From Pseudoruegeria aquimaris (lineage in GTDB: Bacteria > Pseudomonadota > Alphaproteobacteria > Rhodobacterales > Rhodobacteraceae), in the NCBI RefSeq assembly GCF_900172235.1, contig NZ_FWFQ01000005.1:62001-126000 (forward strand): a stretch of DNA of 64,000 nucleotides. Direction: 5' to 3'. Of the stretch, positions 20,297-26,444 are shown piece by piece. Made by a program: the position numbers and the translations under genes. The first letter of the stretch is position 1. The number at the start of each line of letters is the position of its first letter. The notes beneath the pieces are model-generated. The model was not told the origin of the DNA. It ran no database searches and was given only the letters and a program-made list of their open reading frames with translations.

Positions 20297-21171
20297 CGAT
20301 CTACAACCTCGGCTCGATCAACGCCGATCACGTCTATTCGGTCCCGCATCTGCCGGGGCCGGGGGAGACCCTGGCCGCCGACAGCCTGAACATCGGGCTG
20401 GGCGGCAAAGGTACCAATCAATCGGTGGCCGCCGCGCGGGCCGGCAGCCACGTGGTGCATATCGGCGCCGTCGGTGCCGATGGCGCCTGGGCGCGGGAGC
20501 GGATCGCGGGCTACGGCGTGAACGTGGATCACGTGGCCACGGTGCAGGGCCCCACGGGCCATGCGATCATCAATGTGGATGCCGGCGGCGAGAACGCGAT
20601 CGTGCTTCTGAAAGGGGCGAACTTCGCCTTCGATCCCGCCCTCGTGGAGGCTGCGCTCGCTCACGCGGGCGTGGGCGACGTGCTGCTGCTCCAGAACGAG
20701 ACAGCGCACCAGGCCGAAGCCGCGCGGATCGCCCGGTCCAAAGGCGTGCGGGTCGTCTATTCCGCCGCGCCCTTCTCGGTTGAGGCGGTGAAGGCGGTGC
20801 TGCCCCATGTGGATCTGCTGGCGATGAACGAGATCGAGGCGGCGCAGCTGTCGGAGGCGCTGGGCACCACGCCCGAAGCACTGGAAGTGCCGGAAACGCT
20901 TATCACGCAAGGTGCGAAGGGGGCTGTCTGGCGTGCGGCTTCAGGGGAGCGCCACGTGGTGGCGAGCTTCAGCGTGACGCCGAAAGACACGACCGCTGCC
21001 GGGGATACGTTCGCCGGCTATTTCGCGGCAGCCTGCGAGCAAGGGCTCGCCGTGCCCGAGGCGATGCGGTTGGCGGCGGGGGCAGCGGCGCTGAAGGTGA
21101 CCCGCGCGGGGGCGGCGGATGCCATCCCGACACGCGCGGAGGTTGAAGCTTTCATCGCCGCTCAGGAGTGA
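20293..21171 (+). CDS. rbsK: PfkB-family carbohydrate kinase, probably ribokinase
   Basis: This cytoplasmic sugar kinase most resembles ribokinase, which phosphorylates ribose at O5. The 292-aa protein carries the ribokinase glycine motif GLGGKGTNQSVAAARAG (residues 35-51) and the C-terminal ATP/anion-hole motif TAAGDTF with catalytic D238. The start overlaps the maeB stop by 4 nt. No ribose transporter or repressor lies nearby, so the true sugar is inferred only from motifs; another PfkB substrate is possible. Its 3' end overlaps convergent msrA by 10 nt. Confidence 0.85.
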   Translation: MTIYNLGSINADHVYSVPHLPGPGETLAADSLNIGLGGKGTNQSVAAARAGSHVVHIGAVGADGAWARERIAGYGVNVDHVATVQGPTGHAIINVDAGGENAIVLLKGANFAFDPALVEAALAHAGVGDVLLLQNETAHQAEAARIARSKGVRVVYSAAPFSVEAVKAVLPHVDLLAMNEIEAAQLSEALGTTPEALEVPETLITQGAKGAVWRAASGERHVVASFSVTPKDTTAAGDTFAGYFAAACEQGLAVPEAMRLAAGAAALKVTRAGAADAIPTRAEVEAFIAAQE

Positions 21172-21833
21172 CCGGAGGCGAAGGGCGCGGCATCACCCCA
21201 AAGCTGTTTCACGCGCTGATCCCGGCCGCAGGCGTTGCGATAGAGCTTGTAGGCGTCTGACTGCTTCTTCGGGCCGAAACGGGTGAGCACGCGCTTGCTG
21301 CCCTTGTAGTAATCCTGGTGGTAGGCCTCGGCGAGGTAGAAGGGCTGCGCTTCGAGGATCGGCGTCACGATTTCCTGGCCAAGCGCGGCACGGGCCTTGC
21401 GCTTGGCGGCCTCGGCAGCGGCTTTCTGCGCCGGATCAGAGACGAAAATCGCGGTGCGGTAGCTGTCGCCCCTGTCACAGAACTGGCCGCCGGCGTCCGT
21501 CGGATCGACCGAACGGAAGAAGAGATCCACCAGCTGCGCATAGCTTACCTGCGCGGGATCATAGGTGATGCGCACCGCCTCGTAGTGCCCGGTGCCGCCC
21601 TTCGTCACCTGCTTGTAGCTGGGATCGGACACCGCGCCCCCGGTAAAGCCGCTCTCGGCCTCGATCACGCCCCTTACGCTTTCGAAATCGCTTTCGACGC
21701 ACCAGAAGCACCCCCCGGCGAAAATCGCGGTTTCCGTGCTCTGCGCCCGCGCCTCGGCGCAGCTCAGCAAGAAGCCGAAAGTGATGGCGAGGCTCAGGAA
21801 CATGGCCTTGGCGTAGTCGGTGAGAATGTACAT
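21162..21833 (-). CDS. msrA: Exported peptide-methionine (S)-S-oxide reductase MsrA
   Basis: MsrA reduces S-methionine sulfoxide in oxidised proteins. The catalytic motif GCFWC (residues 41-45, nucleophile C42) and the C-terminal HQDYY region are present. The first 31 residues form a hydrophobic leader ending in ARAQS, so the enzyme is predicted to be exported to the periplasm, unlike cytoplasmic E. coli MsrA. The ATG at 21833 is supported by GGAGGG 7 nt upstream. Tandem 14-bp palindromes lie 55-84 nt upstream of the start and may control it. It converges on rbsK with a 10-nt overlap. Confidence 0.93.
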   Translation of the reverse strand: MYILTDYAKAMFLSLAITFGFLLSCAEARAQSTETAIFAGGCFWCVESDFESVRGVIEAESGFTGGAVSDPSYKQVTKGGTGHYEAVRITYDPAQVSYAQLVDLFFRSVDPTDAGGQFCDRGDSYRTAIFVSDPAQKAAAEAAKRKARAALGQEIVTPILEAQPFYLAEAYHQDYYKGSKRVLTRFGPKKQSDAYKLYRNACGRDQRVKQLWGDAAPFASGHS

Positions 21834-21887
21834 GGGTTTGCCCTCCGTGATGCCCTGTTGGTTACAGGCAATACGGCTCCGGGCAAT

Positions 21888-21917
21888 TCACCGGATGGTG
21901 AGTTCACCGTCTGGTGA
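21888..21917. promoter_or_regulatory. Tandem 14-bp palindromes upstream of msrA, possible operator
   Basis: TCACCGGATGGTGA (21888-21901) and TCACCGTCTGGTGA (21904-21917) share perfect TCACC/GGTGA arms with different 4-nt centres. They are spaced 16 bp centre to centre. They lie between the argG terminator and the msrA start. The arrangement suggests two dimer-binding sites for a regulator, but none is encoded beside it. Confidence 0.6.
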
Positions 21918-21961
21918 TCGGGCGTGACCGATTTCGGGGGGATTGTTACGCCTGAACGGTG

Positions 21962-21994
21962 AAAAACGGCCGCGCCCTGTGTCAGGCGCGGCCG
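21962..21994 (-). terminator. Intrinsic terminator after argG
   Basis: A 10-bp GC-rich stem (21967-21976 with 21985-21994, 8-nt loop) is followed on the minus strand by five T residues. It is 8 nt beyond the argG stop. Confidence 0.88.
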
Positions 21995-22001
21995 GAACGG
22001 C

Positions 22002-23225
22002 TTACTTTACGCGGCGGTTGCGCGCGGCCAGCAATTTCAGGCGCAGGGCGTTGAGCTGGATGAAGCCTGCGGCATCCTTCTGATCGTAGGCGCCCGCATC
22101 ATCTTCGAAGGTCACATGGGCTTCGGAGTAGAGCGAGTGATCCGACCAGCGGCCCACGGTGCGTGCGCTGCCCTTGAACAGCATGACGCGCACGGTGCCG
22201 GTGACATGCTCCTGCGATTTGTCAATCGCGGCCTGCAGCATCTCGCGCTCCGGGGAGAACCAGAAGCCGTTGTAGATCAGCTCCGCGTAGCGCGGCATCA
22301 GGCTGTCCTTCAGGTGGCCGGCGCCGGAATCCAGCGTGATCTGCTCGATGCCGCGGTGGGCTTCCAGCAGGATCGTGCCGCCCGGCGTTTCGTAGATGCC
22401 GCGGGATTTCATGCCGACGAACCGGTTTTCCACGAAATCGAGCCGGCCCACGCCATGCTTGCGGCCATACTCGTTGAGCGCGGTCAGAAGCGTGGCCGGG
22501 CTCATCGGGGTGCCGTTGATCGAAACCGCATCGCCCTTTTCAAAACCGATCTCGATGAATTCGGGCTCATCCGGCGCGGTCAGAGGGCTGTCGGTGCGCT
22601 GGTAGACGTAATCCGGCGCCATCTCGGCCGGATCCTCCAGCACCTTGCCTTCGGAGGAGGTGTGCAGCAGGTTCGCATCCACCGAGAAGGGCGCTTCGCC
22701 GCGCTTGTCTTTCGCGATCGGGATCTGGTGCGCCTCGGCGAACTCCAGAAGCCGGGTGCGGCTCGAAAGATCCCATTCGCGCCAGGGGGCGATCACCTTG
22801 ATGTCGGGGTTCAGCGCATAGGCCGAAAGCTCGAAACGGACCTGGTCGTTGCCCTTGCCCGTCGCCCCGTGGGAGACGGCATCGGCGCCGGTGGCTTCGG
22901 CGATTTCCACCAGCCGCTTTGAGATCAGCGGCCGCGCGATGGAGGTGCCCAGCAGGTAGAGCCCTTCATACACCGCGTTGGCGCGGAACATGGGGAAGAC
23001 GAAATCCCGCACGAATTCCTCGCGCAGGTCTTCGATGAAGATGTTCTCCGGCTTGATGCCCAGCATCTCGGCTTTTCGTCGCGCCGGCTCGAGCTCTTCT
23101 CCCTGGCCGAGGTCGGCGGTGAAGGTCACGACCTTGCAACCGTATTCCGTCTGGAGCCATTTCAGAATGATCGAGGTGTCGAGGCCGCCGGAGTAGGCAA
23201 GCACGACTTTCTTGGGCGCGGACAT
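22002..23225 (-). CDS. argG: Argininosuccinate synthase
   Basis: ArgG joins citrulline and aspartate, using ATP, to form argininosuccinate in arginine synthesis. The 407-aa protein starts [18 protein letters not shown]; this N-type ATP-pyrophosphatase P-loop SGGLDTS is diagnostic, and family segments such as [11 protein letters not shown] follow. GGAGA lies 7 nt ahead of the ATG. The gene stands alone with its own terminator and is divergent from ilvA. argJ, for an earlier arginine step, is in the same window at about 53 kb. Confidence 0.97.
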
Positions 23226-24702: not shown

Positions 24703-25032
24703 TCAGGCCGGGTGCAGGGGCAGGCTGGCGAGGAAGGCCGTGCGTGAATTGGCGTAGCTGGCAAAAAGCGCTTGCAGAAACGTCGGATCGCGCTCGCTGA
24801 CTTCACCGCCCGTTTCACCCTCCTGGCAGAGGCTGGCAAACTCCGAGAAACCGAGGTTAAGCGCGCTGCCTTTCAGGAAATGCATGTCCGCGCGGAATGT
24901 CTCCGGCTGAATCTGCCCTTTCAGCCGCTGGACCGTTTCATCGACCTCCTCCAGGAATATCTCGACCACCTCGTCAAAGGCTTCCGGCCCGACTTCCTCG
25001 CGCAATTCGTTTACCCGGTTCCAGTCTATCAT
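24703..25032 (-). CDS. Histidine phosphotransfer (Hpt) domain protein
   Basis: This 109-aa all-helical protein is a free-standing Hpt module that relays phosphoryl groups between response regulators or from a hybrid kinase. The phosphoacceptor histidine is H51 in HFLKGSALNLGF, the classic Hpt signature. A GTG at 25041 would add three residues; the ATG at 25032 is preferred. It is divergent from the REC-PP2C gene with a gap of about 155 nt, which suggests a shared phosphorelay. No histidine kinase is encoded in this window. Confidence 0.85.
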   Translation of the reverse strand: MIDWNRVNELREEVGPEAFDEVVEIFLEEVDETVQRLKGQIQPETFRADMHFLKGSALNLGFSEFASLCQEGETGGEVSERDPTFLQALFASYANSRTAFLASLPLHPA

Positions 25033-25187
25033 CGGTGGCACCCCGCCTTTGTCACATGGCTCTGGCAGAATGCGCGCGCTTCCTTAAGATTTCGTTCGTC
25101 TTGTTCAATGTTTGATCCGGCGGGCGTTCAGCCGATGTTAAGGCGCGGTTGGCAGACTCCGGAAAAGATGCAGGAAAAGGGCGCAAC

Positions 25188-26444
25188 GTGGCGACAGTGA
25201 ATTTCAGCACAGCGGCGGCGGAGCAGTCGGGCGACATGCGGGCGATCAACACCGTGCTTCTGGTGGATGACAGCCGTGCGCAGCTTTCGCTGCTGTCGGC
25301 GATGATGCGACGATGGGGATACACGTTCGAAACCGCGGCCTCCGGCGAAGAGGCGCTGGAGATCTGCCGCCGCGCGCCGGTGGATCTCGTCATCAGCGAT
25401 TGGATGATGCCGGGAATGGACGGGCTGGCCTTCTGCCGGGCTTTCCGCGGCCTGCCCACCGATCGCTACGGCTATTTCATCCTCGTCACCTCGAAGAACG
25501 AGAAGCAGGATATCGCCACGGGCCTCGACGTGGGGGCGGACGAGTTCCTGACGAAACCGGTGAACCCCGACGAACTGCGCGCCCGCATCAATGCAGCGGA
25601 GCGGATCCTGCTGATGCAGCGGCGGCTCAATGCCCAGATGGAGCAGTTGCAGAAACTCTACGACAAGCTCGATCAGGATCTGATCGAAGCCGGGAAACTG
25701 CAGCAATCCCTCGTACGGGATCGGGAGGTGCAGCGCGGGCCGCTGGCGCTTTCCTTCCTGCTGGAGCCCAGCGGCCACGTGGGCGGCGATCTGGTGGGCT
25801 GGTTCCGCGCCGGGGAGGGGGATGTCGGCTTCTTCTCGCTGGACGTTTCAGGGCACGGCGTGCCGTCGGCGCTGCTCACCCTGCGCCTTGCCGGCATGCT
25901 GAGTGCCGACAACCCGGAGCACAACATCGCGCTGCGCCGGCTTGAAGACGGCGGGGTCGCGCCGCGCCCGCCGGAAGAAACGGCGGCGCTTCTGAACGAA
26001 GCCATTCTCGACGGGATGGACACCGATCTCTACTTCACCATCGCGCTGGGCGTGCTGAACCTTGCCACCGGGCAAGGGCGGATGGTCCAGGCCGGGCACC
26101 CCGCGCCCCTGTTGCGGCGCGCCGGTGGCGAATTGGCCTTCCTCGGCGAAGGCGGCCTGCCGGTGGGGCTCATTCCGGGCGCGCAGTTCACCGGCTTCGA
26201 TTTCGATCTCACTCCGGGCGACAGGCTTCTGCTCTATTCCGACGGCGTGACGGAGGCCGCCGCCCCGGATGGCGCCCTGTTCGGCGAAACCCGTCTTTCA
26301 GAGCACATGCAGGCCCATGCGCAGGCCGCGGGGCAGGCTTATTTCGTCGCGCTTCAACAGGCGCTCGAGAGCTTCTGCCAAGGGGGCGATCCCGGGGACG
26401 ACGTCTCGGGCGTCCTGCTCGAATACGGCTCGAACATGGCCTGA
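25188..26444 (+). CDS. Response regulator with PP2C-type (SpoIIE/RsbU) serine phosphatase output
   Basis: The protein joins a receiver domain (about 20-138) with phosphoacceptor D71, acidic pocket D27/D28, T101 and K123 to a coiled-coil linker (about 140-180). A SpoIIE-type PP2C phosphatase domain (about 185-415) follows. The PP2C metal motifs GGDLVGW, LDVSGHG, YSDGVTEA and GDDVSG are intact. This RsbU-like architecture usually controls an anti-sigma-factor antagonist switch. The start is taken as GTG 25188, 418 aa, because AAGGG lies 6 nt upstream; TTG 25149 and ATG 25236 are alternatives. The divergent Hpt gene is the likely phosphoryl donor. No antagonist or anti-sigma gene is nearby. Confidence 0.88.
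   Translation: MATVNFSTAAAEQSGDMRAINTVLLVDDSRAQLSLLSAMMRRWGYTFETAASGEEALEICRRAPVDLVISDWMMPGMDGLAFCRAFRGLPTDRYGYFILVTSKNEKQDIATGLDVGADEFLTKPVNPDELRARINAAERILLMQRRLNAQMEQLQKLYDKLDQDLIEAGKLQQSLVRDREVQRGPLALSFLLEPSGHVGGDLVGWFRAGEGDVGFFSLDVSGHGVPSALLTLRLAGMLSADNPEHNIALRRLEDGGVAPRPPEETAALLNEAILDGMDTDLYFTIALGVLNLATGQGRMVQAGHPAPLLRRAGGELAFLGEGGLPVGLIPGAQFTGFDFDLTPGDRLLLYSDGVTEAAAPDGALFGETRLSEHMQAHAQAAGQAYFVALQQALESFCQGGDPGDDVSGVLLEYGSNMA

Follow-up and report, generated by a model that had tools for sequence, protein, structure and literature searches.

Two adjacent palindromes stand upstream of the gene for a putatively exported MsrA protein in Pseudoruegeria aquimaris, raising the question of which regulator reads them and in response to what. 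Within the window, by which we mean the whole 64,000-nt stretch of DNA analysed, 21888-21917 contains exactly two copies of TCACC-N4-GGTGA (TCACCGGATGGTGA at 21888-21901 and TCACCGTCTGGTGA at 21904-21917) with a period of 16 bp and a gap of 2 bases, confirming the repeat reported in the first-pass annotation with both copies exact. The arms inside each palindrome lie 10 bp apart and thus on one helical face. That annotation had placed two bound dimers on roughly the same helical face as well, but a 16-bp period amounts to about 1.5 turns and the two palindromes would therefore point to roughly opposite faces. The site falls in the 168-nt gap between msrA and argG (Table 1) and, since argG has its own terminator (21967-21994), it belongs to msrA. 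No regulator gene is adjacent, as had been stated. The signal-like N-terminus of this MsrA, recognised by eye, suggests that the enzyme is exported. Elsewhere in the window (24703-26444) a small Hpt-like protein encoded on the minus strand lies beside a receiver plus phosphatase-like protein on the plus strand, as seen by eye in the ORF list.

Table 1 Features of the msrA-argG region, with box centres given relative to the inferred transcription start
Feature	Position in window	Strand	Remarks
Distal CenR-like box	21904..21917	-	Exact match; msrA-strand reading TCACCAGACGGTGA; centre ~-59
Proximal CenR-like box	21888..21901	-	Exact match; msrA-strand reading TCACCATCCGGTGA; centre ~-43
-35 element TTGCCC	21881..21886	-	One base past proximal box; TTG conserved in alignment
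Weak -10 candidate TAACCA	21859..21864	-	16-bp spacer
GTAAC element	21945..21949	-	32 bp upstream of distal box
msrA, target gene	21162..21833	-	223 aa; Pfam PMSR; N-terminal signal-like segment by eye
Intrinsic terminator of argG	21967..21994	-	Separates site from argG transcription
argG, upstream neighbour	22002..23225	-	Pfam Arginosuc_synth

The suggestion that an oxidative-stress regulator controls msrA was not supported, and the best candidate is instead CenR, a two-component regulator of envelope stress. OxyR and LysR-type regulators recognise ATAG-type half-sites at 10-bp steps or a T-N11-A core. A site of this type was rejected for the operator, whose TCAC/GTGA arms follow one another at steps of 10, 6 and 10 bp with the outer T and A 12 bases apart. 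We consider it highly probable from sequence comparison that the two palindromes constitute a doubled CenR box, predicted to be bound by CenR and to activate the exported MsrA. We infer CenR binding at the msrA operator, its occurrence as dimers, the activation and the start site alike.

This genome carries a cenR orthologue on a different contig (G000:C34), its product being 87.7 % identical to R. sphaeroides CenR with D11-13, D51 and D56 present; at L191, too, the response regulator has those aspartates that are reported for the R. sphaeroides protein. The promoter of the cenR gene of this genome contains ACACGAGCGCGTGA, which is, letter for letter, the published R. sphaeroides cenR site. 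Perfect [AT]CAC-N6-GTGA was found in 20 of 23 promoters of cenR orthologues and in 21 of 23 when up to one mismatch was allowed (12.5 % of shuffles), with a TTG 16-17 nt past the box in 19 of the 23. The msrA operator agrees with a CenR operator in several respects: its boxes have the TCAC-N6-GTGA form, lie upstream of the -35 and point with transcription from the inferred start, the genome encodes a cenR gene with a box of its own, and the distal box is 17 nt from the -35, the distance of usual CenR promoters. A CenR matrix was derived from 30 published R. sphaeroides sites (PMC9275681), with the msrA site left out. Among 127,974 window positions, this matrix ranked the distal box third and the proximal box ninth on the msrA strand, while the proximal box on the opposite strand ranked fifth. 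Two in-gene positions, 38601 and 46283, outscored the distal box with the same matrix and were taken as chance because they fall inside ORFs (46283 by eye). Of 21 upstream regions of exported msrA genes from the family, 18 scored above the 95 % background level and the remaining three did not. No doubled CenR box was seen in the literature listings on the CenR motif, its inverted repeat and a link to msrA, and PMC10470753 gave no match. The doubled box, and the exported msrA as a predicted CenR target, are new here.

The strongest alternative changes only the identity of the binder, with TCAC-N6-GTGA recognised, for example, by a different response regulator or a factor of the oxidative-stress response, and the likeness to CenR limited to the arms. 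Brucella CenR interacts with the response regulator EssR and many promoters are bound by both proteins (PMC10746171, in the parts of the text available). Every one of 41 genomes yielded cenR-like genes at E ≤ 0.001, but as this threshold also catches other response regulators, co-occurrence cannot single out CenR. The same box, however, is present at rpoH and at the cenR promoter, perfect in the 20 of 23 orthologues given above, and both genes are CenR targets in the accessible text of PMC9275681; we therefore regard control by a different regulator as improbable and retain CenR as the predicted binder.

We aligned 53 tandem msrA promoters, collected with a search pattern that did not require TTG, and found a TTG beginning two bases after the last base of the box, its T and G present in 53 of 53 and its middle T in 43. 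At a 17-bp spacer a -10-like A was present in 36 and a T in 34 of the same 53 promoters; as the window has a 16-bp spacer, its exact -10 is uncertain. A generic sigma-70 consensus scan of 21700-22100 returned no promoter, which is visible by alignment only. A single base separates the operator from the -35 of this weak promoter, a position that fits an activator. This arrangement also bears on whether the palindromes could act as RNA, forming two stem-loops in the msrA leader. Although the 168-nt gap folds better than its shuffles (z -4.51), the fold includes the strong argG terminator, and the boxes, being upstream of the conserved -35, would not be transcribed with msrA. In other genera the arms are often not fully paired, TCACC facing CGTGA (36 of the 53 promoters have C at position 10), and no Rfam family was matched in the window at the gathering score (0 matches). 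RNA hairpins, which we judge very unlikely, were set aside on the position of the boxes.

The exact close pair is rare and its position is conserved. The 3.69-Mb genome has three exact TCACC-N4-GGTGA palindromes as compared to none for the reversed-pattern control, two of them at the msrA site and the third within a murA-like gene (named by eye). With one mismatch the numbers rise to 79 and 37 respectively, indicating that single degenerate boxes are common and that it is the exact close pair which is rare. The window count is by itself of little information, since the two exact copies are joined by one with a single mismatch and at least three matches at ≤ 1 mismatch were reached by 24 of 100 shuffles. 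Allowing ≤ 2 mismatches, 11 of 195 genomes contained the tandem pattern; all but one of these 11 places lie directly before msrA, the exception being L038 (10 of 11). Across 394 genomes of the family we identified TCAC-N6-GTGA-N2-TCAC-N6-GTGA at ≤ 1 mismatch in 66 (2 of 394 for the reversed-pattern control); 52 of the 67 places precede the projected msrA start by 8-146 bp and the other 15 do not. This pattern extended by NTTG, with ≤ 2 mismatches, was present in 98 of 394 genomes (control 1). Applied without mismatches to 84,980 species genomes, the extended pattern identified 47 loci, 46 of which precede msrA while the sole other, from Thalassobacter, precedes a short ORF. The titles of these 47 loci name Rhodobacteraceae or genera of that family, together with one 'Alphaproteobacteria' bin. 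No regulator was recognised by eye among the ORFs neighbouring the 47 loci, where the longest members of clusters were often wrong-frame ORFs.

Perfect TCAC-N6-GTGA was found in 13 of 21 upstream regions of exported msrA genes within the family and a one-mismatch box in 6 more (0.2 % and 7.7 % of shuffles respectively). Outside the family no perfect box and a single one-mismatch box were seen in seven msrA regions (7 of 9 loci, L027 and L029 left out). Chance palindromes without function are hardly conceivable as an explanation, for common as single one-mismatch boxes are (79 against 37), the conservation of the pair and of perfect boxes before msrA already contradicts chance. Both the footprint in relatives (52 of 67 and 46 of 47 places, from relatives that are not independent) and the whole-genome search (3 exact against 0) address conditions that the first-pass annotation had named as able to refute its claim, and neither did so: the repeat is kept upstream of msrA and is not scattered at random. 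Together they support its view of a probable protein-binding site belonging to msrA. At L222:1509-1900, L109 and L238 the msrA position is taken by short ORFs that still have the operator in front; these have a signal-like start followed by a stop and, by eye, look like msrA remnants.

Pooling the loci of three pattern scans at ≤ 2 mismatches gave 115 place-strands, of which 79 belong to msrA, 4 to rpoH, 4 to a TPR-like protein and one each to cenR, MsrB-like, DegP-like and DUF5333 genes. The other 24 comprised, on reading, 10 msrA operators on the opposite strand, 2 sites before short ORFs (L222, L238) and 12 unassigned sites. Pfam cut-offs were passed by Response_reg, Trans_reg_C, SelR, Trypsin_2 and DUF5333; the TPR match stayed below the Pfam cut-off, and so did the NCBIfam scores for MsrB and DegP below their own. 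TPR-like proteins of approximately 460 amino acids follow a two-mismatch tandem site in four genomes (L098:1330, L184:1501, L197:1501 and L231:1500), making this family a possible new CenR target. The single cases are an MsrB-like protein that carries a Tat-like signal (L187:1501), a DegP-like protease (L194:1501) and a DUF5333 protein (L052:1501). Only one box, TCAACAGCGCGTGA, precedes rpoH in P. aquimaris, and it departs from the motif at one position. When the tandem-site matrix was applied to the rpoH upstream regions of 30 relatives none reached the training-set minimum of 28.7 and most scores were negative, indicating that rpoH rarely has the box doubled.

An msrA is among the published CenR targets, but it is of another type. 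The CenR-bound msrA of R. sphaeroides, RSP_0559, is an orthologue of the second msrA type of this genome (G000:C51, L284; also L272), to which it is 73 % identical as compared to 47 % over 145 amino acids for the msrA of the window, and only a single msrA match was obtained in R. sphaeroides. For the exported enzyme, CenR control is therefore a prediction. The R. sphaeroides genome used (G077) was identified through coordinates and through the published sites at cenR, rpoH1, tolQ and msrA. Control of the other type appears patchy, as 7 of the 23 upstream regions examined passed the cut of the CenR matrix. The other msrA of this genome (L284) passes the same cut only via a site lying 24 bp upstream of the gene start. 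The operator in the window suggests that CenR control is able to sit on either of two msrA paralogues.

We propose that CenR, a response regulator of the OmpR family driven by the sensor kinase CenK, would occupy both TCAC-N6-GTGA boxes, at approximately -59 and -43, with probably one dimer on each. Bound CenR would help the sigma-70 RNA polymerase to use a promoter whose -10 is weak, and exported MsrA would thereby be switched on by cell-envelope stress. If true, repair of oxidised methionine in exported proteins is tied to an essential envelope-stress pathway. Among family msrA promoters without the pair, 8 of 13 have a TTG 16-17 nt past the best box. Judged by its spacing, the tandem pair keeps the usual distal box and the second box fills the 17-nt gap, at the place used at srlA of Sinorhizobium meliloti, a member of a different order of alphaproteobacteria.

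CenR boxes at msrA and cenR (also L239-L261) are in addition preceded by an element, G[AT]AAC, at a distance of one, two or three helical turns. Among 53 tandem msrA promoters 19 have this element ahead of the box, against a shuffle mean of 4.0; the same holds for 4 of 11 single-box msrA promoters (0.7) and 18 of the 19 cenR promoters in which a box was found (1.7). Of its 45 occurrences, 36 lie approximately 10, 21, 31 or 42 bp from the box against an expectation of 21 %, for phase classes picked post hoc and sequences that are related. A search of the literature for a ChvI motif with GTAAC found none. As a tentative possibility, the msrA operator may be a composite, helically phased switch, made up of a CenR box 17 nt before the -35, a gap-filling second box for cooperating CenR dimers (or for CenR and a partner regulator) and G[AT]AAC bound by a factor shared with the cenR promoter.

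Published CenR systems differ in how the recognition site is described. According to the accessible portion of Lakey et al. 2022 (PMC9275681), R. sphaeroides CenR binds and activates cenR, rpoH1 and an msrA, and its motif is printed as a direct repeat, TGA-N8-TGA. All 31 sites printed there can nonetheless be read as degenerate forms of TCAC-N6-GTGA with a loose second base, the counts being T1 30, C2 18 (G 12), A3 20 and C4 28 for the left arm and G11 19, T12 29, G13 24 and A14 26 for the right. Neither C4 (28 of 31) nor G11 (19 of 31) is part of TGA-N8-TGA, which makes the msrA operator a clean test of the inverted against the direct reading of these sites. The motif search of that study, as described in the same portion, allowed each promoter no more than one site (zoops) and a doubled box was therefore not reportable. 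The R. sphaeroides regulon, as far as this text covers it, shares with the msrA operator sites directly upstream of the -35, activation and targets including cenR, rpoH1 and an msrA, but differs in its direct-repeat motif and in that its msrA is the other paralogue.

The Brucella CenR-EssR-EssS system, in the parts of PMC10746171 available, likewise has CenR at envelope-stress promoters but involves a second regulator; the accessible main text contained no match for motif, consensus, palindrom, msrA or rpoH. In S. meliloti, the available sections of PMC9561847 describe an inverted repeat, AGTCAC-N6-GTGACT, at srlA, centred at -42 beside the -35, which is needed for activity as seen with mutated arms and is bound by CenR in gel shifts, and the authors state that their motif and the R. 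sphaeroides motif align. On this partial account the srlA promoter has a single box and another target gene, but shares with the msrA operator the inverted-repeat form TCAC-N6-GTGA next to the -35.
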